26,746 bases of DNA from positions 1 through 26,746 of the IMG/VR virus record IMGVR_UViG_3300050821_015813, one strand, 5' to 3'. Below are positions 3,639-25,912 of the stretch, piece by piece (position 1 is the stretch's first letter; each line of letters opens with the position of its first letter). Below the pieces are notes generated by a model. That model made no database searches and was not told where the DNA came from. It saw only the letters and a list, made by a program, of their open reading frames with translations. The translations under genes and the position numbers were made by a program. The stretch is from a virus.

Positions 3639-4643
3639 CTATGCGCTCGTCGCGGCAGTGTTCGTCGTGACGATGTTCAACATCTCCGAGTTTGCGGTCG
3701 AATAGACGGCCTTGAACTTGACGGTCTGGTACACGAGATCTTTGATCTTTATCGGACGGCTGAACTCGGTGAAGTAGCACTGGTCGAGCGTGATGTTCAC
3801 CGTCGGATGCGACGGGACGACGCCGATGTTCACGTCCGTGTTCTGCAGCACAATCGAAAGCGCCTGGGGAACGTTCGGCGTTGCGAGTGAGACGGTTTTG
3901 AAGTCGGACTCGTTCTGCCAGATCGCCTCAAGCGACCCGGTCACTTTGAACTCTTTGTTCAGGTAATCGATCGGTGCGTTACTGCCGAGGACTTCGTCGT
4001 CCTCGATGCTGGCGTCAAGCGAGAGCTTGAACGATTTCAGCGGTATGGCAGTCGCTCCGGAGATCCCGGAGACGGAGGTCGCGTACTTGAACGTCATGTA
4101 CTGCGGGAGGAAACGATTCTCCGCGGCAATGGACGGGGTGAACGAGGACTGCGAGACGCCCTTCAAGGCCTTCACGGAGAGCGAGAGCTCGGCGAACTTC
4201 TTCAGCTCGACATCGAGATCCATCTTGTGGACGACGCCCAGCGCGTGGGAGTAATCGACGGCCGCAAGCGGGTCGTGGATGAAGAACGTGAGGGACTGGT
4301 GCTGTGCGCTCTCGCCGACCGTCGCTTTGTGGTCGTAGACGGTCGATTCGCCCGAGTGCGTGGTGTCCGCGCTCGCGCCGAACATCGAATACAGGATCAG
4401 CGGCAAGCTGAGGTCCGTGAGGGGAACCTTGAGCGTACCTTCTGCCCAGTTTTTCACGCGGAACTGTCCTACCGAATCTTCGATGACGCCGTATGCTTCG
4501 TCCTGCGTGACGTTCTCATACTTCTCGTCGATCGATGCGTCGCTGAACGGAAGCCAATGGTTGGCGGAAGAAATGGCGGTGCCGCGGGTCACTTCCTTGG
4601 CGATCCCGATGCTGAACCGTCTTCCAATTCCTTTTTGTGACAT
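3639..4643 (-). CDS. Major tail (tube) protein
   Basis: 334 residues from ATG 4643. The opening MSQKGIGRRFSIGIAKEVTRG and the beta-rich body with segments such as SFKLSLDASIEDDE are typical of tube proteins of phages with long flexible tails, which stack as hexamers to form the DNA conduit. The length is at the long end for the family and allows an added C-terminal domain (around residues 250-334) that could decorate the tube surface. It is the first gene upstream of the chaperone pair and is separated from the small gene at 4646-4894 by 2 bases, so both are probably translated from one message. No Shine-Dalgarno site; the leader reads ATAAACAATAAAA. Confidence 0.85.
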   Translation of the reverse strand: MSQKGIGRRFSIGIAKEVTRGTAISSANHWLPFSDASIDEKYENVTQDEAYGVIEDSVGQFRVKNWAEGTLKVPLTDLSLPLILYSMFGASADTTHSGESTVYDHKATVGESAQHQSLTFFIHDPLAAVDYSHALGVVHKMDLDVELKKFAELSLSVKALKGVSQSSFTPSIAAENRFLPQYMTFKYATSVSGISGATAIPLKSFKLSLDASIEDDEVLGSNAPIDYLNKEFKVTGSLEAIWQNESDFKTVSLATPNVPQALSIVLQNTDVNIGVVPSHPTVNITLDQCYFTEFSRPIKIKDLVYQTVKFKAVYSTANSEMLNIVTTNTAATSA

Positions 4644-4911: not shown

Positions 4912-5379
4912 TTATTGGACTGCGGCGGGGACCAGTGTCTTTGCTTTAAGCGTAATGTAGAACACGACGTATGTCACGCTGTTGCTACTCACAGGCCCGG
5001 GTGGATCTAGAATTGCCGGACTCACGCCGCCGACCGCCATCCCTTGCAAGGTGACATCGTTGTCGAAAGCTTGGAGCACGTTGTCGATCAGGCTTTCAAG
5101 ATAGGTGGGATCTGAGCCGGAAAGATTCTCCGGCGTCGTGATAACCATGACGTACCACGTATATTCCCGGAGGTTCGTCGCGACGTCATAGTATTCCGAT
5201 TGGCCGACGGTCGGAGGAATGACGAGCGCCGCCGGGAACGTTCCCCATGTCCGGTCCAGGGGATTGAGCTTCGTGAAATCGTCCGCATTGTATGAGCCGA
5301 GAACACCGCTCGTGACAAGCGACTGAAGATCGGTCACGATCGCGTTCTTCATGTTCTGCGCGGGAGTGGTACTAGGCAT
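4912..5379 (-). CDS. Tail terminator / tail completion protein
   Basis: 155 residues from ATG 5379. The sequence has an N-terminal helix (NMKNAIVTDLQSLVTSG), then a beta-sheet body with YTWYVMVITTPE and a C-terminal strand set (VTYVVFYITLKAKTLVP). This alpha-then-beta arrangement and length match lambda gpU / SPP1 gp17-type proteins that cap the tail tube and join it to the head. The start overlaps the last 8 bases of the gp10-like gene upstream, pointing to translational coupling. Position after the neck protein and before the tube gene supports the call. The identification is structural by pattern, not by a catalytic motif. Confidence 0.72.
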   Translation of the reverse strand: MPSTTPAQNMKNAIVTDLQSLVTSGVLGSYNADDFTKLNPLDRTWGTFPAALVIPPTVGQSEYYDVATNLREYTWYVMVITTPENLSGSDPTYLESLIDNVLQAFDNDVTLQGMAVGGVSPAILDPPGPVSSNSVTYVVFYITLKAKTLVPAAVQ

Positions 5380-5842
5380 TGGATTGTTCGGCGATCTGGG
5401 CCATTACTTTGTCGAGCGCCTGGACGAAGAGCGATTCGATGTCGGGCTGGGAGGCCGCGACGATGCGTTCCATGAAGGGATTAGCCTTCGTGCCGGGATG
5501 GTGGACGACAGGGCCGAACACCTGCCCCGTCTGGGTATTCGCCAGCACGCGCTTATTCACCGCTCTGATGATGTGCGGTCCGGTGCCAAACTCGACGAAT
5601 GGTGCGTAGCTTGCGCGCGGATACCATCGTGCCGTGAGGTTTCCGATCTCAAACGCCCAATTCTGCACAAGGTATCCGGTCTTGATCGGGACCGTGGCGG
5701 CAGTCGTGAACTTCGCAAGGATCGCCTGCGCGGCGACGACTGCGTTCTGGATGATCGGCGTGGAGATGGCGGGATAGTCTGCAAGCGCCTCTTGGAGCTT
5801 CGGAAGATTTGGGATTGAAATTGAGAAGGTTGAGCCTTGCAT
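5372..5842 (-). CDS. HK97 gp10-like head-tail joining protein
   Basis: 156 residues from ATG 5842. The family features are visible: an N-terminal helix set (LPKLQEALADYPAI), the mid-protein motif TGYLVQNW, and the characteristic YAPFVEFGTGPHI followed by a C-terminal NPFMERIVA segment. Proteins of this family (HK97 gp10, neck type 1) attach to the connector after DNA packaging and bind the tail. Gene order connector, gp10, tail terminator, tube is the standard siphovirus order. It begins 4 bases downstream of the end of the connector gene and overlaps the terminator gene by 8 bases. Confidence 0.88.
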   Translation of the reverse strand: MQGSTFSISIPNLPKLQEALADYPAISTPIIQNAVVAAQAILAKFTTAATVPIKTGYLVQNWAFEIGNLTARWYPRASYAPFVEFGTGPHIIRAVNKRVLANTQTGQVFGPVVHHPGTKANPFMERIVAASQPDIESLFVQALDKVMAQIAEQSNA

Positions 5843-5846
5843 TGGG

Positions 5847-6716
5847 TTAGAAAATATTGCCTACGCGCCGGTAGTTCTGGATGACGTTAAGATCGAACGC
5901 GTCGAGCCTGTCTTTCCATGACGTCGTCGCACCCTGGATGTTCTCACTTGCTCTCCCGTCGAGTAGGCGGCGCTTGAATATCCGGACGACAAGGTTTTCG
6001 CAGAGGTTCGTGAGATCGGCTGGAAGTTGATGCGTCGCACCATCGCCCGCATTCGCAAAGTTCGCCGGAAACCCGGCGACGTAGGTCGCGCGAATCATGT
6101 TGTTGTAAAGCCCTGGGATCGAACCGTAAACCCGGATGATGCCCGAGCGCCCCTGCTGGTCGAGCTCGAATTGGTCCTGGATGAAACTTGTCCAATTGGG
6201 ATTGCTCGGTGTGCCTGATCGCCACTGGAAGGAAATGAGGCCACTGATCTCGAACACGGCGCCTGTTTGCGAAGCGCTCGCTGGTTGGCTCATCGTGAGC
6301 GCGCCGTTGCTCCCCGCAGTGAGAACAGTAGTCCCTTGGGGGAATAGTCCTTGAATGTTGTAGAGCGGCATTCCGGCAACAATGCCCGTATACGGCGCGA
6401 CCGTGACATTGGCAGAACCGGATGTCAGATTGCCTGTGACCGTGAGATACGTGACCGGCGAGTTCCGGAGGACGAGGCGCTCCTGCTTCCGTCCCTGCGT
6501 TGTGTAGACCTCGTTCGTATAGGTCTTCTGGATAAAATGCCCGTCGTTCGGATACGATTCGAGACCGGTCTTGCCGCACTCGCGCTCGATGAAGTCGGTC
6601 GCGCCATTAATGAGCCGCATGAGGACCGTGTCCGAATCGGTGTTATTGATCTGCAAACGATCTTTGACTCGTTGCAGGGTTGTTAAGGCATATGGATAGA
6701 CTTGTTCTCCTGGCAT
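5847..6716 (-). CDS. Head-tail connector (gp6-like adaptor) with insertion
   Basis: 289 residues from ATG 6716. The N-terminus (LTTLQRVKDRLQI followed by DTVLMRLINGATDFIERECG) is the helical start of the gp6/gp15-type adaptor family that docks under the portal. The C-terminus has ADLTNLCENLVVRIFKRR, the expected last helices. The family is usually 100-200 residues; here residues ~95-170 form an extra beta-rich, Gly/Thr/Ser-rich insertion (LTSGSANVTVAPYTG), possibly an exposed domain. The ATG is immediately preceded on the transcript by a short hairpin (6723-6737), which may limit its translation. The next gene upstream (6786) is separated by a 10-bp stem inverted repeat. Confidence 0.82.
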   Translation of the reverse strand: MPGEQVYPYALTTLQRVKDRLQINNTDSDTVLMRLINGATDFIERECGKTGLESYPNDGHFIQKTYTNEVYTTQGRKQERLVLRNSPVTYLTVTGNLTSGSANVTVAPYTGIVAGMPLYNIQGLFPQGTTVLTAGSNGALTMSQPASASQTGAVFEISGLISFQWRSGTPSNPNWTSFIQDQFELDQQGRSGIIRVYGSIPGLYNNMIRATYVAGFPANFANAGDGATHQLPADLTNLCENLVVRIFKRRLLDGRASENIQGATTSWKDRLDAFDLNVIQNYRRVGNIF

Positions 6717-6785: not shown

Positions 6786-7235
6786 CTAGGTGTTCGAAGC
6801 TGCTGATGTGACGGGGAGCTGCTGTGCTCCACCACCGAAGACGATCTCGCCGTACGCGAGGACCGCGGGCGACGTGCCGCCGGTGAAGGACGGCGTCACC
6901 ACGATGCGAAGGTACCGCTTCCGATTAAGGTTGAGGCCTTCGATGCGAGCGGCGTTCACTCCTGCTGCGGCCTGGAGGCCGGTAAGGGTGAAACCGATGA
7001 CGGTCCCGGTGTTATCGAGCGCGTTCGCCCAGCTGGTTGAGCCGTCAAGGCTCTCCTGGAGAGTGACCACGAGCGACGCGGCGCTCGGAGAACCCGAGGC
7101 TTCGGCCGAGTACACGTGGAGCTTCGCGTTGTCGTACCCCTGGGTATCGACCGAGACGCCATTGACGGCGCCCGTGACGCTCTGCGGGATGACGCTCGAC
7201 ACCTGATGGATGTCGTCATATGCATTGAATTTCAT
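6786..7235 (-). CDS. Probable capsid decoration / head protein
   Basis: 149 residues from ATG 7235. Composition is beta-rich with many Gly, Ser, Thr and Val, few charged residues and no Cys. Segments such as SLVVTLQESLDGSTSWANAL and KRYLRIVVTPSFTGGTSP are shared with small phage head proteins that lie between the major capsid gene and the connector, where decoration or head-fibre proteins are coded. I do not see a catalytic motif. The leader is AAACAATCATCAGC before ATG, a form repeated before other minus-strand genes. The upstream neighbour is the damaged capsid gene. Alternative: a head completion protein. Confidence 0.55.
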   Translation of the reverse strand: MKFNAYDDIHQVSSVIPQSVTGAVNGVSVDTQGYDNAKLHVYSAEASGSPSAASLVVTLQESLDGSTSWANALDNTGTVIGFTLTGLQAAAGVNAARIEGLNLNRKRYLRIVVTPSFTGGTSPAVLAYGEIVFGGGAQQLPVTSAASNT

Positions 7236-7379: not shown

Positions 7380-7937
7380 CTAGGACGCCGCTGTATAGAC
7401 GACGGTGAATGCTTTGGGGAGCACGACCACGAATGCGTGGCGGTGCTTGTAAACGATGCCGCGCTGGTCAGAAAGAGCTACCTCTTTGCCGCCGAACGAG
7501 CCCGATTCGAACTGGGCCACGCGCAAGTCGCCCTTGTCGCCGAACGCGCACGCTTTCATGTTTCCGAAGATGATGAAAGCAGTGTTCGCCTGCGAGCCAA
7601 CGGTGGTTGCGGGGAGCCAGCGGTTCGTATAGACGGGGAATCCGCCCATGCCTCCTGCCGGCTTTATGGGGCCGCCAGTAGCGTCATGTGCGAGTTCATC
7701 CTTGCCCATGAGGCCGCCAAAGGCCAAATAAGGCAAGCCGGAAGTCGAAGCCAATTCGGTTCGGATCGCAGCCCAGACGGTGCGGTGCATGTACCATGCG
7801 GCGCCGTCCAAGATGGATTCCTCCAAAGTGGCGATGACGTTTCCAGCGTCCGTGATCGGATTGAACTTCGCATACGTCGTGTTCGTTGCTGCCAACGTAT
7901 ATACGCCTTTTGCACTTCGCGGAGTGCTGCGGCGCGG
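7380..7937 (-). pseudogene. Major capsid protein, C-terminal half only (HK97 fold)
   Basis: The frame is open from just after a TGA (7938-7940) to TAG at 7380. From about 7912 it reads AKGVYTLAATNTTYAKFNP and then the typical end of HK97 capsid proteins: an ESILDGAAWYMHRTVWAAIR helix, a GGFPVYTNRWLP strand, AFIIFGNMKACAFGDKGDLR, and a closing IVYKHRHAFVVVLPKAF. About 175 residues remain from a family of roughly 280-400; the N-arm, E-loop and spine helix are missing. The only in-frame start-like codon is a TTG at 7895, which has no ribosome site and would begin inside a strand. The gene is therefore 5'-truncated and fused head-to-tail, in another frame, with the gene starting at 8230. Capsid assembly from this locus cannot work unless a complete copy exists elsewhere. 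Confidence 0.82.
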
Positions 7938-8230
7938 TCACGGCCGGGGGCGAACTTATCGTTAGCTATCTCCCAGCCCACGCGGGCGATCTCGGCCATC
8001 GCGTCTTGGAAGGAAGTGAGCGCCATGTTGAGGGTCCATGTGTCGGCGCGTTTGGCGCGTTCGGTGTGGATCGCCTTCAAAAGCGAGCCTATGTAATGGC
8101 GGTCGAGGGTCAGACCTTGAACTTCAAGTGCCTTGCGAATGCCCTCGGCGCTGATGTGCGGGTTCTGCACTATGAGGCTGCGGACGCGCTCGCGATGGTA
8201 ATGCTTGGTTTTTATAGATAGGGGAGGCAT
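7908..8230 (-). pseudogene. Helix-turn-helix protein of the terminase-small-subunit region, 3'-truncated
   Basis: From ATG 8230 (MPPLSIKTKHYHRERV) the protein has a helix-turn-helix-like part (HISAEGIRKALEVQGLTLDR then YIGSLLKAIHTERAKR) and a helical segment with MAEIARVGWEIAND and AAALREVQKAYIRW. This type of gene normally stands just upstream of the terminase large subunit, and may itself be the small subunit that recognises phage DNA. The recognisable sequence stops at about 7908, where the capsid coding sequence begins in another frame. The reading frame continues to 7664 but beyond the junction it is only the shadow of capsid codons, so the natural C-terminus is lost. The end coordinate is an estimate of the junction. 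Confidence 0.6.
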
Positions 8231-13291: not shown

Positions 13292-13513
13292 ATGCCGTGC
13301 GCTCGAAGGATCTTTTATAGATATTCGAATATTCTGCTAGCTGACGATCTGGAGATCGATCTCACGCACGAGCTTGTGCTCAAGCAGGGTGACATCATCT
13401 CTCGGTGCGGCCGGAATTGGAAGATCGAGTCGGTGCTATCAGAGGAATTCAGCGGGCATCGACTAAAGATGCCGACGATCTTTGTCTATTTGGTAGATGC
13501 ATCGGTGAACTGA
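13292..13513 (+). CDS. Small tandem paralog A, 73 aa
   Basis: First of three neighbouring genes that encode related proteins. It shares with the next two an N-terminal strand ending in (K/R)Y, a central KQGDIISRCGRNWKIESV and a C-terminal IFVYLVDASV. The alternation of hydrophobic residues and the conserved Gly-Asp and Trp suggest a compact beta-barrel fold. The ATG 13292 has AGTGGGGACA in front, a weak ribosome site. It is 43 bases from the next copy, which has its own promoter. Function unknown; duplication suggests a family under selection for diversification. Confidence 0.72.
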   Translation: MPCARRIFYRYSNILLADDLEIDLTHELVLKQGDIISRCGRNWKIESVLSEEFSGHRLKMPTIFVYLVDASVN

Positions 13514-19510: not shown

Positions 19511-19537
19511 AAAAGCCTCGCGCGTTGCGGGGCTTTT
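19511..19537 (+). terminator. Intrinsic terminator
   Basis: AAAAGCCTCGC, loop GCGTT, GCGGGGCTTTT: an 11-bp stem with one G-T pair, symmetrical A and T runs. Ends the gene at 19324-19506 and may allow some readthrough into the CHC2 gene. Confidence 0.85.
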
Positions 19538-19554
19538 CCACTGGGAGCGCGAGT

Positions 19555-20112
19555 ATGCTCGATTTTTCCAGGATAAAGGAAATCAAACTCACCGATGTTC
19601 TGGCGCGGTACAAGATCGCCTTGAGATACAAGACCGATTATGCCGTGTGCGCGTGTCCGTTGCCGACACACAAAAGGGGCGACACTTCCAAATCGTTCTC
19701 CGTGAATCTGCGGGGCAACTATTTCATCTGTTTCTCTGATTCCTGCAATGCGAACAACGGCGGGAAGCGCGGTGGTGATGTGATCAACTTCGTCGCGCTG
19801 ATGGAAGGATGCCGGGAAAAAGACGCGGCCCTCAAGCTCTCTGTGTGGTACGGGATCGAAGAAACAAAAACCCCTACTCACATGGAGCAGGGGCGGAAAC
19901 AAGAACCAAAAACCGAAATGCAAGGTTCTAACCAGAACGGTAGCATTTCGGGCGATAGCGTCAAGTACATGGCATCTATTGATGCCTGGTTCTATGATCT
20001 GGTTACAGTGGAGGCGGGAGAGAACAGAGACGATTATTTCAACCGCATCCTGAAGGCAGTCAAAGACAAACTGGTGGCAAGCTACAACGCTGGCAAAAAA
20101 GCCGCCAAATAA
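19555..20112 (+). CDS. Stand-alone CHC2 zinc-finger (primase-type) protein, 185 aa
   Basis: Start ATG 19555, with GGGAG upstream; the frame is open to 19525 but that part lies in the terminator. Residues 1-30 (MLDFSRIKEIKLTDVLARYK) and the zinc site C34-P..H39, C59, C64, followed by GGKRGGDVINFVALMEG, match the DnaG N-terminal CHC2 domain that recognises the priming site. The toprim catalytic domain is absent: after residue 100 the protein continues with a polar linker and a helical C-terminus (WFYDLVTVEAGENRDDYFNR) without Asp/Glu motifs. It may act with a host or separate primase, or may be a regulator. Ends in a terminator. Confidence 0.82.
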   Translation: MLDFSRIKEIKLTDVLARYKIALRYKTDYAVCACPLPTHKRGDTSKSFSVNLRGNYFICFSDSCNANNGGKRGGDVINFVALMEGCREKDAALKLSVWYGIEETKTPTHMEQGRKQEPKTEMQGSNQNGSISGDSVKYMASIDAWFYDLVTVEAGENRDDYFNRILKAVKDKLVASYNAGKKAAK

Positions 20113-20949: not shown

Positions 20950-22188
20950 TCAAGCCGCAAGGAAGCGATTTATCTTCTCGATCACGTCTTTTCTCTTTGA
21001 GCCATACCGCATCAGAGACGCTTTAATCAACTTCGTCGGGTTAGCTTCATCACCGCGCTTTTGGATCGTAGGCCAGCCGATTATGCGCCGGGCTTGCGGG
21101 AGATCATCCGCGAATGTGCGGCAATAAAACTGGTATCGAGGCAGGGAAGTGATGTGCGTCGCCTGCACCTGCTCTTCGTTCCAATTCTCCTGAATCGCCT
21201 GGGCGTCCTCTCCGGAGACATTGAATGTGATCTGCGTGGGGCAGTTTGAAAAGACGTCCTTCGCAAAAGGGAGCTGGTACATCCCCTGCGAAGCCAGGAC
21301 CAGAGTGATGCCATATTTCCGGGATTCAGCGAGGAGCGTGCCGAATCTCCCGCCGTGGACGAAATTGTGAACCTCGTCAGCCACGAGCATGAAGGGCGGC
21401 CGGGACTTCTGCTTTTCCCGCTTGAGTGCAGAAATGGAGACCATCGAAACGATCAAAGACCCGAGGATCTGGGCGATCTCTTCTCCGAGGCGGCCCTTCG
21501 AAAATCGGCACACGACGATCTTCTTCTTGTTCATGATCTCTAGAAAGTCGAGAGACTTGGGCTGGCCGATGATTGGGATGATGGACGGCCGGAGCAATTT
21601 TCCCACCTTATTGATCGGCGGCGAGAACTTTGACATCTGTTCCGAGTCCCGCAGTTTTTCGTCGTACTGCTCCTTGAACATTTGAAGCAAGGGGTTTTCG
21701 GTCGCGGCCAAAATCTTTTCTCGGAACTTGTCATCGGCCATGAATCGAAAGATGTGGACCGGCGTCGGGTGGTCATAATATTCGCAGACTGCGTCGATGG
21801 CGTTAATAATGACCCGCGCGGATTCATCGCCCCACGCGGTGCCGGCGAGGGATTTGAACGTGGTGAATAGAGATTCTTTCCCGAGTTCCAATTCTTCTGG
21901 CGAGTTGAAATGGAGCGGGTTGAACGGGGGCACGAGCGAAGCATCCGGATCAATCCAGATGAAATCCCTCATCCGACTTTTGGGAATCAGCCTGGCGATC
22001 TGGTCGGCGGTATCGCCGTGAGGGTCAATAAAAAGTCCGCCGTTACCCTGGCGCAGATTTTCAATAAAAAGATTGACGAGCAGGGTGGACTTTCCCATTC
22101 CGGACATCCCCTCAATTGATATGTGCTTCGTACTGTCTATTGAGAACTCGTGATTCGTTATCGAGTCCCTTCCGATACTGATGGACAT
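20950..22188 (-). CDS. HerA/TraD-like DNA-transfer ATPase, 412 aa
   Basis: Residues 28-37 (GMSGMGKST) are the Walker A motif, followed by GGLFIDPHGDTADQIARLIP, the typical second motif of type IV coupling proteins and HerA relatives. Walker B is PPFMLVADEVHNF, and the following GTLLAESRKYGITLVLASQG is the arginine-finger/sensor helix with ASQG. There are no membrane helices, unlike full-length VirD4. The protein would form a hexamer that pumps DNA. Start ATG 22188 with a weak upstream site. A second, different ATPase of the same superfamily is coded at 24210-25912. Confidence 0.88.
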   Translation of the reverse strand: MSISIGRDSITNHEFSIDSTKHISIEGMSGMGKSTLLVNLFIENLRQGNGGLFIDPHGDTADQIARLIPKSRMRDFIWIDPDASLVPPFNPLHFNSPEELELGKESLFTTFKSLAGTAWGDESARVIINAIDAVCEYYDHPTPVHIFRFMADDKFREKILAATENPLLQMFKEQYDEKLRDSEQMSKFSPPINKVGKLLRPSIIPIIGQPKSLDFLEIMNKKKIVVCRFSKGRLGEEIAQILGSLIVSMVSISALKREKQKSRPPFMLVADEVHNFVHGGRFGTLLAESRKYGITLVLASQGMYQLPFAKDVFSNCPTQITFNVSGEDAQAIQENWNEEQVQATHITSLPRYQFYCRTFADDLPQARRIIGWPTIQKRGDEANPTKLIKASLMRYGSKRKDVIEKINRFLAA

Positions 22189-22214
22189 AAATAGCTGGAT
22201 TAGGTGGATTGTCT

Positions 22215-22436
22215 ATGAAAATGGATGTGCCGGTTCTGGAAGATCCTTCCCTCATTGTGCTTTGCCCGGTGTGTGAGGCGCGTCCACATGAACCGTGTCA
22301 TGTCCAGCCTGGAGTCCTTCGACCCGAATCGCATTTTGAAAGAAGCCAATTCGCTGCAAAAGTGAGGGGCGACAGCGCGGTACAGCCGCACAGGATGGAA
22401 TCATTACAGCGACATCGTCGGAGAATGGAAAACTGA
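22215..22436 (+). CDS. Small zinc-finger protein (CPxC..PxxPC type), 73 aa
   Basis: Start ATG 22215, with AGGTGG 7 bases before. LCPVCEARPHEPCHVQPG is the conserved motif of a small zinc-finger family known from phages and many genomes, and PESHFERSQF is its second conserved part. The natural protein probably ends shortly after; here the last 20 or so residues (from VRGDS) are Arg/His-rich and unlike the family. Near that point an AAAA run, with a TGA in the next frame, suggests a lost base. Single plus-strand gene between two minus-strand units. Confidence 0.68.
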   Translation: MKMDVPVLEDPSLIVLCPVCEARPHEPCHVQPGVLRPESHFERSQFAAKVRGDSAVQPHRMESLQRHRRRMEN

Positions 22437-22560
22437 ACAGTGCTATGCCGCCGTCGCCGCCACCATCAAAGACTGGATTACAGCCCGAGATAGCGGCGAG
22501 GGACGGATAGTGCCGGAAGTTCCGGCCCCGCTGTTTTACCAGCGATTCATTTCATTATGA
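22366..22560 (+). pseudogene. Orphan reading frame without start, 64 codons
   Basis: From just after a TGA (22363-22365) to TGA (22558-22560) the frame reads RYSRTGWNHYSDIVGEWKTE, CYAAVAATIKDWITARDSGE and ends APLFYQRFISL. The mix of Trp, Tyr and ordinary residues looks like a real protein rather than a shadow, yet no ATG, GTG or TTG is at hand near its beginning. It overlaps the Arg/His-rich end of the zinc-finger frame, so a single base change could restore a second gene or a fusion. Probably a truncated gene remnant. Confidence 0.4.
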
Positions 22561-22583
22561 AGAGTTTCCGGCAATTGTCGAGA

Positions 22584-23279
22584 TTATGGGACTACAGTCA
22601 CTGTCTTTGTGAAGGGCCTCCCAATGGTCGAGGCAGAGATAGTTATCCGAGTCGGGTGTCTCACCTTCTTCGTGGTGATAGAGAATGTCGTTACTTTGCG
22701 GCCAGGAGGAATGGAAATAGCGCCGGATGGAAGTGTTGCAATTTTATCGTGATCTTCTAATGTGAGATCGATGCGGATACCCGCTTTGCTTGCGGTGTCA
22801 TTTGATATTGCCTGCACCGAAAACGATTTCCCAGCTGTTACGCGATCCGGTGCCTGGATTGTGTTAAGCGGAGTTCGATCATGAACTTTTACCGTAGCAG
22901 CCGCATCGAATGTTCCATCACCTGGATTCATATGGGAGCAATGGTAAACAGTTGTAATCACCGGATGATATTCTTTGGACTCTGTGTATTTGTGGCCCGG
23001 TATTGGCGGGATGTAATAGACGCTGGCAGGTGTGGGGAACTTTGCCTGTTGGGCAGTGTTGTGCACTTCCGCCTTGGGAGTGCCATCATCGAAATTGACG
23101 AACGTGTGTAAATTATCGATTTCCCACTCGTTCTTAAGGGACGCCATGTGATCACCGTCGTAAACAACCCCGTTTTCAAAGTCGGTTCGAATCCAAGTCA
23201 CCGTCGGCTTGCATTGCGTCTGTGCACACAGCAGTCCTGCGCTGCATAGGAACAGAGATATAACCAGTAACTTCCTCAC
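22584..23279 (-). CDS. Exported protein with C-terminal Ig-like domain, 231 aa
   Basis: GTG start at 23279 with a strong AGGAGGAATC site. Residues 1-20 (LLVISLFLCSAGLLCAQ) are a Sec signal peptide. The middle has YYIPPIPGHKYTESKEYHPV and two cysteines. Residues ~140-231 form an Ig-like domain: IQAPDRVTAGKSFSVQAI, then LPSGAISIPPGRKVTTFSIT and ITISASTIGRPFTKTVTVVP, the repeat type common in cell-surface proteins of Acidobacteriota and relatives. It interrupts the transfer genes and has its own promoter (23360-23388), so it looks like a host-derived surface gene carried as cargo. Confidence 0.78.
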   Translation of the reverse strand: MRKLLVISLFLCSAGLLCAQTQCKPTVTWIRTDFENGVVYDGDHMASLKNEWEIDNLHTFVNFDDGTPKAEVHNTAQQAKFPTPASVYYIPPIPGHKYTESKEYHPVITTVYHCSHMNPGDGTFDAAATVKVHDRTPLNTIQAPDRVTAGKSFSVQAISNDTASKAGIRIDLTLEDHDKIATLPSGAISIPPGRKVTTFSITTKKVRHPTRITISASTIGRPFTKTVTVVP

Positions 23280-23359
23280 GATTCCTCCTCATGTGTCGGC
23301 AGACTCGGGAGAATCGAGAATCAACACCGACACCAAATGCTGATTTTTGCGGGGAGATC

Positions 23360-23388
23360 ATCCTAGCTCTAATCACCTTTCATAGCAA
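23360..23388 (-). promoter_or_regulatory. Sigma-70-like promoter of the exported protein gene
   Basis: On the minus strand TTGCTA (23383-23388), a 17-base spacer and TAGGAT (23360-23365), each 4/6 to consensus. The GTG start is about 80 bases further on. This gene would be transcribed independently of the upstream replication-relaxation gene. Confidence 0.42.
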
Positions 23389-23416
23389 CAAAAAAATCTG
23401 TAGGCGCCGGACATAA

Positions 23417-24277
23417 TCACTTGGTAGACACTCCGTTGAACGAGTAAGTCGTCGTAGTAAAGTCCCTCGGTGTCCTGAAAATTCCCCCAGCAATGTCATC
23501 TTTATATCCACGCTCTGTCGTGAGCCAAAACATCCGGTGATTGAACTGCTTATTGAGTTCCTTCAAGAGATTCTCGCGGCGTTCGTGCGTGCGCTGCACG
23601 ACGACCACGCGGAACTGCCGAAAATCCTGCCACTCCTTTTCGCACGCGTCGGTCCCGTAATATGCGTAATACTTCCCGAGCTTTCGCATGATCGAAGGTT
23701 CGCCGTCGCGGTAATGACCGATCTTCGCGCGCTCCATTTCGAGGAAATAGTACAGGGTGTTTTTGCCGTTAGGCTTCTGCGGGTCAGTGATGCCGAACAT
23801 CGCATCGGGGGAGACAGTGCATTTCAAGTCAGACTGTTGCCAATAGAGTTTCAATTTGTGCTTCAGGCAGAATTTCTCGAGCGCGGCGTGGAAGAACGAG
23901 ATCTCAAGCTCGTGGTCGAGAGTCCGCTGGGAATGTTCGTCGAAGGTCTTGGCGAGCGGCCATAGGGACTTGCAGAACTCCACGCCTTTGTCTGAAAGAC
24001 CCCAGGCATAATGAACACTGCCCGAGACACGATCGAGATCGAGGTAGGGAAGCCGGGCCACAACACCGGCCTTCAGGAGGACGGTGAGGGTCTGACGGAC
24101 TGAACGCTTGTCGTTGGGGTTCGGAGCGTGGCCACGGATGAGTTCCGCGATGTCGTTTGTGCGGAGGCAAAAGTACTCAGCGAGGAGTTCGAGAACTTTT
24201 CTATTTGTGCTATAGAGTTTTATCCCCGGGAGCGCCGGTGGGCTCGATGTCCTCCGACTTGGTGTTTGTACTGCCAT
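23417..24277 (-). CDS. Replication-relaxation family protein, 286 aa
   Basis: Start ATG 24277 (MAVQTPSRRTSSPPALPGIK) is preferred; the longer frame to 24388 overlaps the preceding ATPase gene. Residues ~20-90 form a winged helix (KVLELLAEYFCLRTNDIAEL, then VRQTLTVLLKAGVVARLPYL), and the remainder is the conserved alpha/beta domain with HELEISFFHAALEKFCLKH and TLYYFLEMERAKIGHYRDGE. This family accompanies TraG-type ATPases on plasmids and integrative elements, where it is thought to help relax or replicate the DNA (the role is not well defined). It overlaps the ATPase gene by 68 bases, consistent with one operon. Confidence 0.8.
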   Translation of the reverse strand: MAVQTPSRRTSSPPALPGIKLYSTNRKVLELLAEYFCLRTNDIAELIRGHAPNPNDKRSVRQTLTVLLKAGVVARLPYLDLDRVSGSVHYAWGLSDKGVEFCKSLWPLAKTFDEHSQRTLDHELEISFFHAALEKFCLKHKLKLYWQQSDLKCTVSPDAMFGITDPQKPNGKNTLYYFLEMERAKIGHYRDGEPSIMRKLGKYYAYYGTDACEKEWQDFRQFRVVVVQRTHERRENLLKELNKQFNHRMFWLTTERGYKDDIAGGIFRTPRDFTTTTYSFNGVSTK

Positions 24278-25912
24278 TCCATTCACTATGACGTACCGCC
24301 GGGGAATGTAAAGCCTCGTTGTCCACAGTGCGTTTCTGGCCGCTTTGGGCGGAAGTATCTGCGCGATAACGCTCAATGGTGTGCGCACGCAATTGATCGA
24401 GCATCAGGTTAGCATCGTCCTCATCATTTTCTGACATGACGTGGATGCGCTTTGTTCGTGCGAATATCGGTGAGGCGGAGCCAATTTTGAAGCAAGCTTG
24501 AAATGGTTCAAGTTGCACAAGGCGCGGGGGCTTATATGGTGAGATGACGTCACTAAATTGATTGGCATCGTCTTTGCTGATTTGGAAAAAATGTAGGTGG
24601 GATTATTGCCGAGAATGGCCTTGAGGTTTGTCGAAAGCACCTGGTCTAGGTATTGATTCCCGAGCGTGAGCCGGAGTCCAAGCCCTCCCGCCACAGAAAG
24701 CAGATCTGCAAAGGATTCGGTCTGGCAAAGCTCAAATTCATCGACGTGGAGAAAGAATGGGGTTCGTTTGTATTTCGGAATGGCTGAGCGACGATTTATC
24801 ACAGAAGCGATTTGCGCCATGAGCAGCGAACCGTAAAATTGCGCATTCTTATCTCTTGGAGGGGAAAGATCTACGAGGAGAATTTTCTTTTGGTCCATGA
24901 TCGAAGCAAGATCGAGCGGCGGTGTGCGGGCGTCGAAGATAGCCTTGAGAAAGGGACTGTTGTAGAAGGCGCTCAACCGCCTCTCAAGCGTGGCAACGCC
25001 TTCCTTTGGGAACGGCTTCCACATTTCAACCAATTCTTTTTCCACCAATGACAGCTTTAGGAGAAAGTCGTCTCTCCAACTCTTGAAGGCGATGAAGCGG
25101 TACATGTCCGTGATCGTGGTATCGGGAATGAGGAGAAATGCTCGAATGATTTTTTCAAGCAGTGGTGAGGCAGCCTTGAGAGTTTCGTCGCCTTTCGTGA
25201 CGACGTAAATGAGGTCATTCACCACGCGTTCGGTTTCTTCAGGGTCGCGATCGAGAAAGTTGAGCGGCACGGGCGTTTTGAGATCGAGATAAACAACGTC
25301 ATCAATGATGCGCCGACGTTCGCCGTCCACCACTCGGTATTCGGGCAGGGAATGGACTATCAAGCGGAGGAGATCGCGCTTCGGGTCTAAAACGCCGACG
25401 CCGTTCCCCTGCATGATGTCGTTATAAATAATGCTATGAAGCTGGGTGGATTTGCCCCGCTGCGTGCCACCCGGCACATAAATATGCTTGCTACGGATTT
25501 CGTCTGGGATGAGCGGCGGCTCCCGTAGGAATACGGGCGTGGGATCACGTCGTTCCTGTTCTGCTTCCTTCTCGGCTTTCCTTTCTGCTTCTTTCGCTTC
25601 TTGGTCCGCTTTGCGCTGGGCATCGCGCTGCTCACGCTCGCGCCTTTTCAATTCATCGCGGCGGATCCGCTCCTTTTGTCGCTCGATCTCTATCTTGAGC
25701 CGCTCCACAGTCTTTGCGTGCTCCTCGGCTTCTACATCTTTACGGCTCACTCTGTTCCGGCGCTTTTGTTCTTCTAGCCGTTCCCACTCGCTTCGATATT
25801 CTTCAGCAAACACCCTCTTCCTAGAGAAACTTAGAGAATTGGGCATTTTGGGTGCGATGACTCTTGCAACATAGTCGTCCCAATCTTCCGGATCGTCAGG
25901 GTTCTTGCTCAT
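24210..25912 (-). CDS. TraG/VirD4-like ATPase, interrupted by a -1 frameshift in a T run
   Basis: Start ATG 25912. Residues ~55-125 are a basic coiled coil; Walker A GGTQRGKST is at 148-156, followed by NGVGVLDPKRDLLRLIV; Walker B is TPFFLHVDEFELC (near 391); the sensor GLRLTLGNQYLDQV follows. After residue ~442 the zero frame loses homology (ends at 24404), while the -1 frame continues with QISKDDANQFSDVISPYKPP, PRLVQLEPFQACFKIG, the normal end of these ATPases, and runs to TAG 24210. The switch is in six T's at 24586-24591. Adding one T restores one protein of about 568 residues. The coordinates given include both frames. It overlaps the membrane protein gene by 17 bases. Confidence 0.83.

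Follow-up and report, generated by a model that had tools for sequence, protein, structure and literature searches.

Organization of the Record

The stretch of DNA analyzed here, referred to as the window, is the whole of the IMG/VR record IMGVR_UViG_3300050821_015813 and measures 26,746 bp. It derives from a soil phage, has no end repeats, and is cut at both ends; the left end falls in the tail hub gene, which makes the record incomplete, and nothing can be read from the lack of genes past this end. In gene direction, the early region begins with a HerA/FtsK-like ATPase (24404-25912, minus strand), whose matches stay below the Pfam cut-offs. It is followed by a Replic_Relax protein (23417-24388, minus strand; PF13814), a VirD4/TraD-like ATPase (20950-22188, minus strand), which is kept in the family, and a DnaG-type zinc-ribbon protein (19525-20112, plus strand), which is kept in the family's early module. 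Small genes come next, and then the structural genes, all on the minus strand. These are a gene in the terminase-small-subunit position (TerS), the C-terminal part of a major capsid gene, and a small protein 3′ of the capsid (6786-7235), which is matched by phrog_5707 and by the relatives and has no assigned function. A head-tail adaptor (5847-6716; phrog_442) and a neck or tail completion protein (5372-5842; phrog_5) follow, and then a protein of 4912-5379, which matches no family and is named tail terminator from its position. The order continues with the tail tube protein (3639-4643; PF18906, phrog_290), the tape measure protein (1133-2938; full length against relatives), and the baseplate or tail hub protein (2-1129), which is truncated at the record's left end.

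Some features of the layout deserve mention in their own right. The two ATPases and the Replic_Relax protein (20950-25912) are kept in about half of 20 relatives tested; this combination is better known from conjugative or mobilisable elements. The ATPase at 20950-22188 was considered as a large terminase on account of a match to phrog_2666 and was rejected, as the match is a generic ATPase one and the best Pfam families are conjugation coupling proteins. The segment 8319-14006 consists mainly of plus-strand small genes, nearly all without counterpart in relatives; within it, three alike short open reading frames at 13292, 13557, and 13782 match a single relative (G002). The window contains no terminal or internal repeats of note that could place a gap at a circular seam. 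A composition of two unrelated halves was also rejected, since the difference in GC and tetranucleotides between the tail and early regions equals that found inside intact relatives.

The Junction and Its Two Gene Stumps

The TerS-position gene is represented by its 5′ part (7904-8230, minus strand; about codons 1-107), as delimited by the full-length genes of relatives. It breaks off after codon 107 or so, out of about 173, and the sequence goes on, in another frame, with the C-terminal 42% of an HK97-fold major capsid gene (3′ part, 7380-7901, minus strand; residue about 237 to the end; PF05065, phrog_10). The two stumps sit in different reading frames. An earlier reading made from the sequence only had described this run of one gene into the other, and the family matches and the relatives bear it out.

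The TerS stump has 79-89% amino acid identity to six relatives across codons 1-109. In relatives, the corresponding genes encode 172-187 aa and lie directly upstream of the large-terminase gene, whose start they overlap in three cases (G002, G003, and G004). The window diverges after ALREVQKAY, where relatives have ALREVREAYNAxFEKLFDAGVFERKLG. Neither the stump nor a full-length relative matches a terminase-small-subunit family in PHROG or Pfam; the TerS name is therefore positional. The earlier identification of the genes is mostly right. On the capsid side, the open reading frame 7380-7895 (minus strand) matches phrog_10, and also PF05065 from profile position 139/153 to 278 of 280, with a score of 35.5 bits against a cut-off of 24.2 for the C-terminal part of the profile only. 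The stump has 70-90% amino acid identity to intact relatives, whose capsids measure 405-409 aa and are matched from residue about 236-237 onward. Capsid residues 1 to about 236, comprising the N-arm and the E-loop region, are absent, and the gene is thus not complete.

The junction was placed by comparing the nucleotide sequence on either side of it with that of 12 relatives. TerS homology extends through GGCGTATA (to about 7900) and capsid homology begins with TATACGTTGG (from about 7901), giving, in minus-strand reading, the junction ..GAAGTGCAAAAGGCGTA/TATACGTTGGCAGC.. at 7899-7908, with an overlap ambiguity of 2-4 bases. The sequence-only reading had put it at about 7904-7915; there is indeed a single join in this place, a few bases to the left of that estimate. 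The join falls within a 10-bp palindrome, CGTATATACG, which may be a chance coincidence. No long repeat and no shared word of assembly length spans it, and a search of viral contigs with 42-bp and 24-bp patterns, in a set that may omit the nearest records, returned no second exact copy.

Intact Relatives and the Missing Block

In 12 uncultivated relatives, the TerS-position gene and the capsid C-part occur in the same order and on the same strand, separated by 7.6-16.4 kb. The gap of several kilobases that had been expected from related phages is therefore real and larger than supposed. The block between the two genes holds the large terminase, a portal/Mu-F protein, a 600-aa protein, and the N-terminal part of the capsid. 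In G002, the large terminase matches phrog_38 (E 9e-72), and the portal, which has a Mu-F-like domain, matches PF04860 and PF04233; the block there also holds a 933-aa protein that belongs to no family, besides the 600-aa protein and the capsid N-part. When the proteins of the block were compared with the rest of the window, they matched nothing except the stumps. Hence the large terminase, the portal, and the capsid N-part are missing, as had been claimed, and a search beyond the junction recovered no head genes in the remainder of the record. The remaining head-to-tail order agrees with the relatives gene for gene (the sequence-only reading had called it perfect), and the window genes other than the stumps are full length where they were compared. 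In another relative, G001, the large terminase (L093:5839-8256, minus strand) has 805 aa against 480 aa and matches Hint/intein-splicing domains.

Uncultivated temperate phages of the same group, for instance IMGVR_UViG_3300036823_000154, 3300037258_001193, and 3300050119_000364, share with the window the gene order, the strand, the TerS-position and capsid genes and, in several cases, the VirD4-like genes, with 79-93% amino acid identity for many tail genes. They differ from it in possessing the whole packaging and head block. A tyrosine recombinase is encoded close to one end in most of the full-size relatives, which indicates that the group is temperate; no integrase or bacterial flank is found in the window. 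Four genome contigs contain a relative of the capsid. The closest is a 232-kb contig of the metagenome-assembled genome Acidobacterium sp. palsa_291 (PKVY01000081.1), where the capsid is intact and the locus is prophage-like. Among 50,697 phage records, neither the capsid nor the tail tube finds a match and the best matches of the large terminase are all below 30% identity, so that the group is not represented in that collection.

Selection on the Two Stumps

The age of the break was approached through codon differences between the window and its near relatives, which were polarized with an outgroup so that changes on the window's own branch could be counted. For the capsid stump, this branch carries 2 nonsynonymous and 10 synonymous codon changes (5 and 11 with another trio); for the TerS stump, 0-2 and 10-13, respectively. 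Under neutrality, a nonsynonymous fraction of 0.73-0.74 would be expected of these sequences, and against this the capsid counts give P = 7e-5 (5e-4 with the second trio) and the TerS counts P = 2e-8 to 1e-5. Intact window genes display the same pattern. Both stumps have been under purifying selection on the window's own branch, which means that the lineage possessed the head block through nearly all of its history. Since nearly all of the divergence arose while both genes worked, the break is either very recent or not in the organism at all. A test of this kind on two stumps is a simple way of separating an old domestication from a fresh break or an artefact.

Other Broken Records and the Shared Capsid Site

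Broken capsids were sought in three screens. The capsid C-part gave 79 loci, the tail tube 73, and the capsid N-part 80; two very distant loci, and one whose N-terminus diverges, were left out of account. With few exceptions, the capsids are intact or cut by contig ends, and about 90 other distinct sequences of the site in the family are intact. Besides the window, two records are clearly broken. The first, IMGVR_UViG_3300037258_001181 (G021, 25.5 kb), retains only capsid residues about 237-324, as a 264-bp piece between two joins, both in frame: upstream it is fused to a truncated HNH gene, and downstream it enters the tail terminator at residue 67. The resulting fusion open reading frame (L205:3326-4351, minus strand) encodes 341 aa, namely, the truncated HNH protein, capsid about 237-324, and tail-terminator 67-155. 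This record extends from the HerA end as far as the integrase, yet has about half the relatives' size and lacks most of the head module. In the second, IMGVR_UViG_3300037549_000238 (L276/G026, 6.7 kb), capsid residues 1 to about 240 run directly into the final part of a tail-chaperone gene, followed by the tape measure; at L276:3500-3700, the capsid N-half stops at the NTYTL site.

Both records belong to the same capsid group as the window and break at the same place, with partners unlike the window's. In all three capsids the break falls on the NTYTL codons, the three sites being within about 13 bases of one another. With breaks distributed uniformly along the 1.23-kb gene, such a coincidence would have P of about 3e-4, a post hoc estimate of our own. 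All four joins in the three records keep the order and strand of intact phages. Random joins would do so in about 0.4-6% of cases, by a rough hand estimate that treats the joins as independent and gives each a chance of a half or a quarter.

The surroundings of the site are distinctive. In two relatives scanned along their genomes, exact 31-mers are most widely shared in and just before the capsid gene, and within the gene at residues about 90-210, where words are shared with up to 17 of 77 loci. The break lies in the patch that follows immediately, residues 211-255, which is high in entropy and rich in indels. A shared stretch that ends in a variable patch would make the assembly graph of mixed relatives fork, which gives an assembly error a reason to recur here. 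The occurrence of one capsid break site in three records would reflect either a systematic assembly failure in a marker gene for virus classification or a true deletion hot spot.

Origin of the Junction

The head genes are lost at one join in this record. The sequence-only reading had offered an internal deletion or an assembly join, and this proved to be the right pair of alternatives. We lean slightly, and tentatively, toward the former over the latter: on this view, one real deletion very recently made defective what had been an ordinary long-tailed temperate phage or prophage of Acidobacteriota. In such an event, the TerS-position gene, broken at codon about 107, would have been joined to the major capsid gene at codon about 237, the two sides overlapping by 2-4 bases. 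It would have removed about 8-14 kb, with the large terminase, the portal/Mu-F protein, the 600-aa protein, and the capsid N-part. The join would be present in the cell and not merely in the assembly, and would probably have arisen through end joining without homology. The element would by itself be unable to package DNA or to form heads; it would be either a prophage in decay or a deletion mutant that depends on a helper, and no new function is evident for it.

In favor of a deletion, the order and strand kept at the joins are expected of deletions and not of random joins, and the lack of a long word across the junction counts in the same direction, as do the wide spacing of the two genes in the relatives, the identification of the missing genes there, the selection on both stumps, and the full length of the other window genes compared. 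The tyrosine recombinase of the full-size relatives also makes decaying prophages an expected finding. Essential packaging and head genes are missing within this record, which is the mark of a defective prophage. The window resembles defective (cryptic) prophages with internal deletions in that a large deletion passes through the head module and the remaining genes stay ordered. It is unlike them in showing no other decay, in having stumps that look functional, and in lacking bacterial flanks. Several observations weigh against a deletion. Three independent natural deletions with breaks within about 13 bp would need a hot spot; the break site is an expected fork of the assembly graph; and a single copy of the junction was found in the viral contigs searched, a set that may omit the nearest records. 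If the deletion is real, the window is one more recently broken temperate phage.

It is also quite possible that the phage was intact in the sample, and that its assembly broke in the capsid where shared DNA ends in the indel-rich patch, the tail contig then being misjoined to a contig ending in TerS. The high sharing just before the variable patch agrees with such an event, as do the functional appearance of both stumps and the breakage at the same site, with different partners, of two records from other assemblies. The 264-bp capsid piece of G021 resembles a short graph edge bridging contigs. In simulated viromes, chimeras amounted to <5% of contigs of at least 10 kb (Roux et al. 2017, PMC5610896), which resembles the frequency of broken records in this family and thereby counts against a deletion; this rate does not settle the choice between a deletion and a chimera. 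Chimeric metagenomic contigs of this kind (PMC5610896) are also alike in having the join beside a stretch common to co-occurring relatives. They are unlike the present records, in which order and strand are kept in all joins and the window's junction has no shared word. An assembly join between related copies, as earlier proposed, is thus possible, although only 2-4 bases are common at the junction. Moreover, the TerS side is not a place of high sharing, and the break lies about 80 bp past the last strongly shared words and not at their edge.

It is rather unlikely that NTYTL is a real recurrent break site, at which DNA is cut time and again, for instance by a homing nuclease or one of another kind, and the ends rejoin using little homology, so that deletion genomes keep arising. 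The codons AACACG-TACACG-TTG form an imperfect dyad (AAC-AC-GTAC-AC-GTT). No insertion (intron, intein, or homing gene) occurs at the site in 256 capsid matches, which leaves a homing intron there unsupported.

Compared with a deletion or a chimera, an established lifestyle without a head fits poorly. The sequence-only reading had suggested a tail-only, tailocin-like, or satellite element; a recent or artefactual break together with the retained early module argues against both an established tailocin and a satellite, and a missing head in a single environmental contig should not be taken as evidence of either. A phage satellite, or a deletion mutant kept by packaging in trans, is very improbable. 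The window does keep early and tail genes without packaging and head genes, and G021 is likewise about half size and without most of its head module. Against a satellite, however, the window has the tail module from adaptor to hub, and satellites are not known to retain a whole tail module. The deletion is also too recent for a maintained lifestyle. No hijacking genes were recognized in the window, where several genes match no family. Least credible of all is a functional element without a head, an F-type tailocin or a gene-transfer-like particle, in which the head genes were given up while selection maintained the tail. The tail genes are indeed intact and under purifying selection, but the equal constraint on the capsid and TerS stumps shows that the phage relied on its head genes until very recently and had not lost them long ago, about 90 other distinct sequences of the site in the family are intact, and the phage early/replication-type module (DnaG-type zinc ribbon, VirD4/HerA-like ATPases, and Replic_Relax) is retained.
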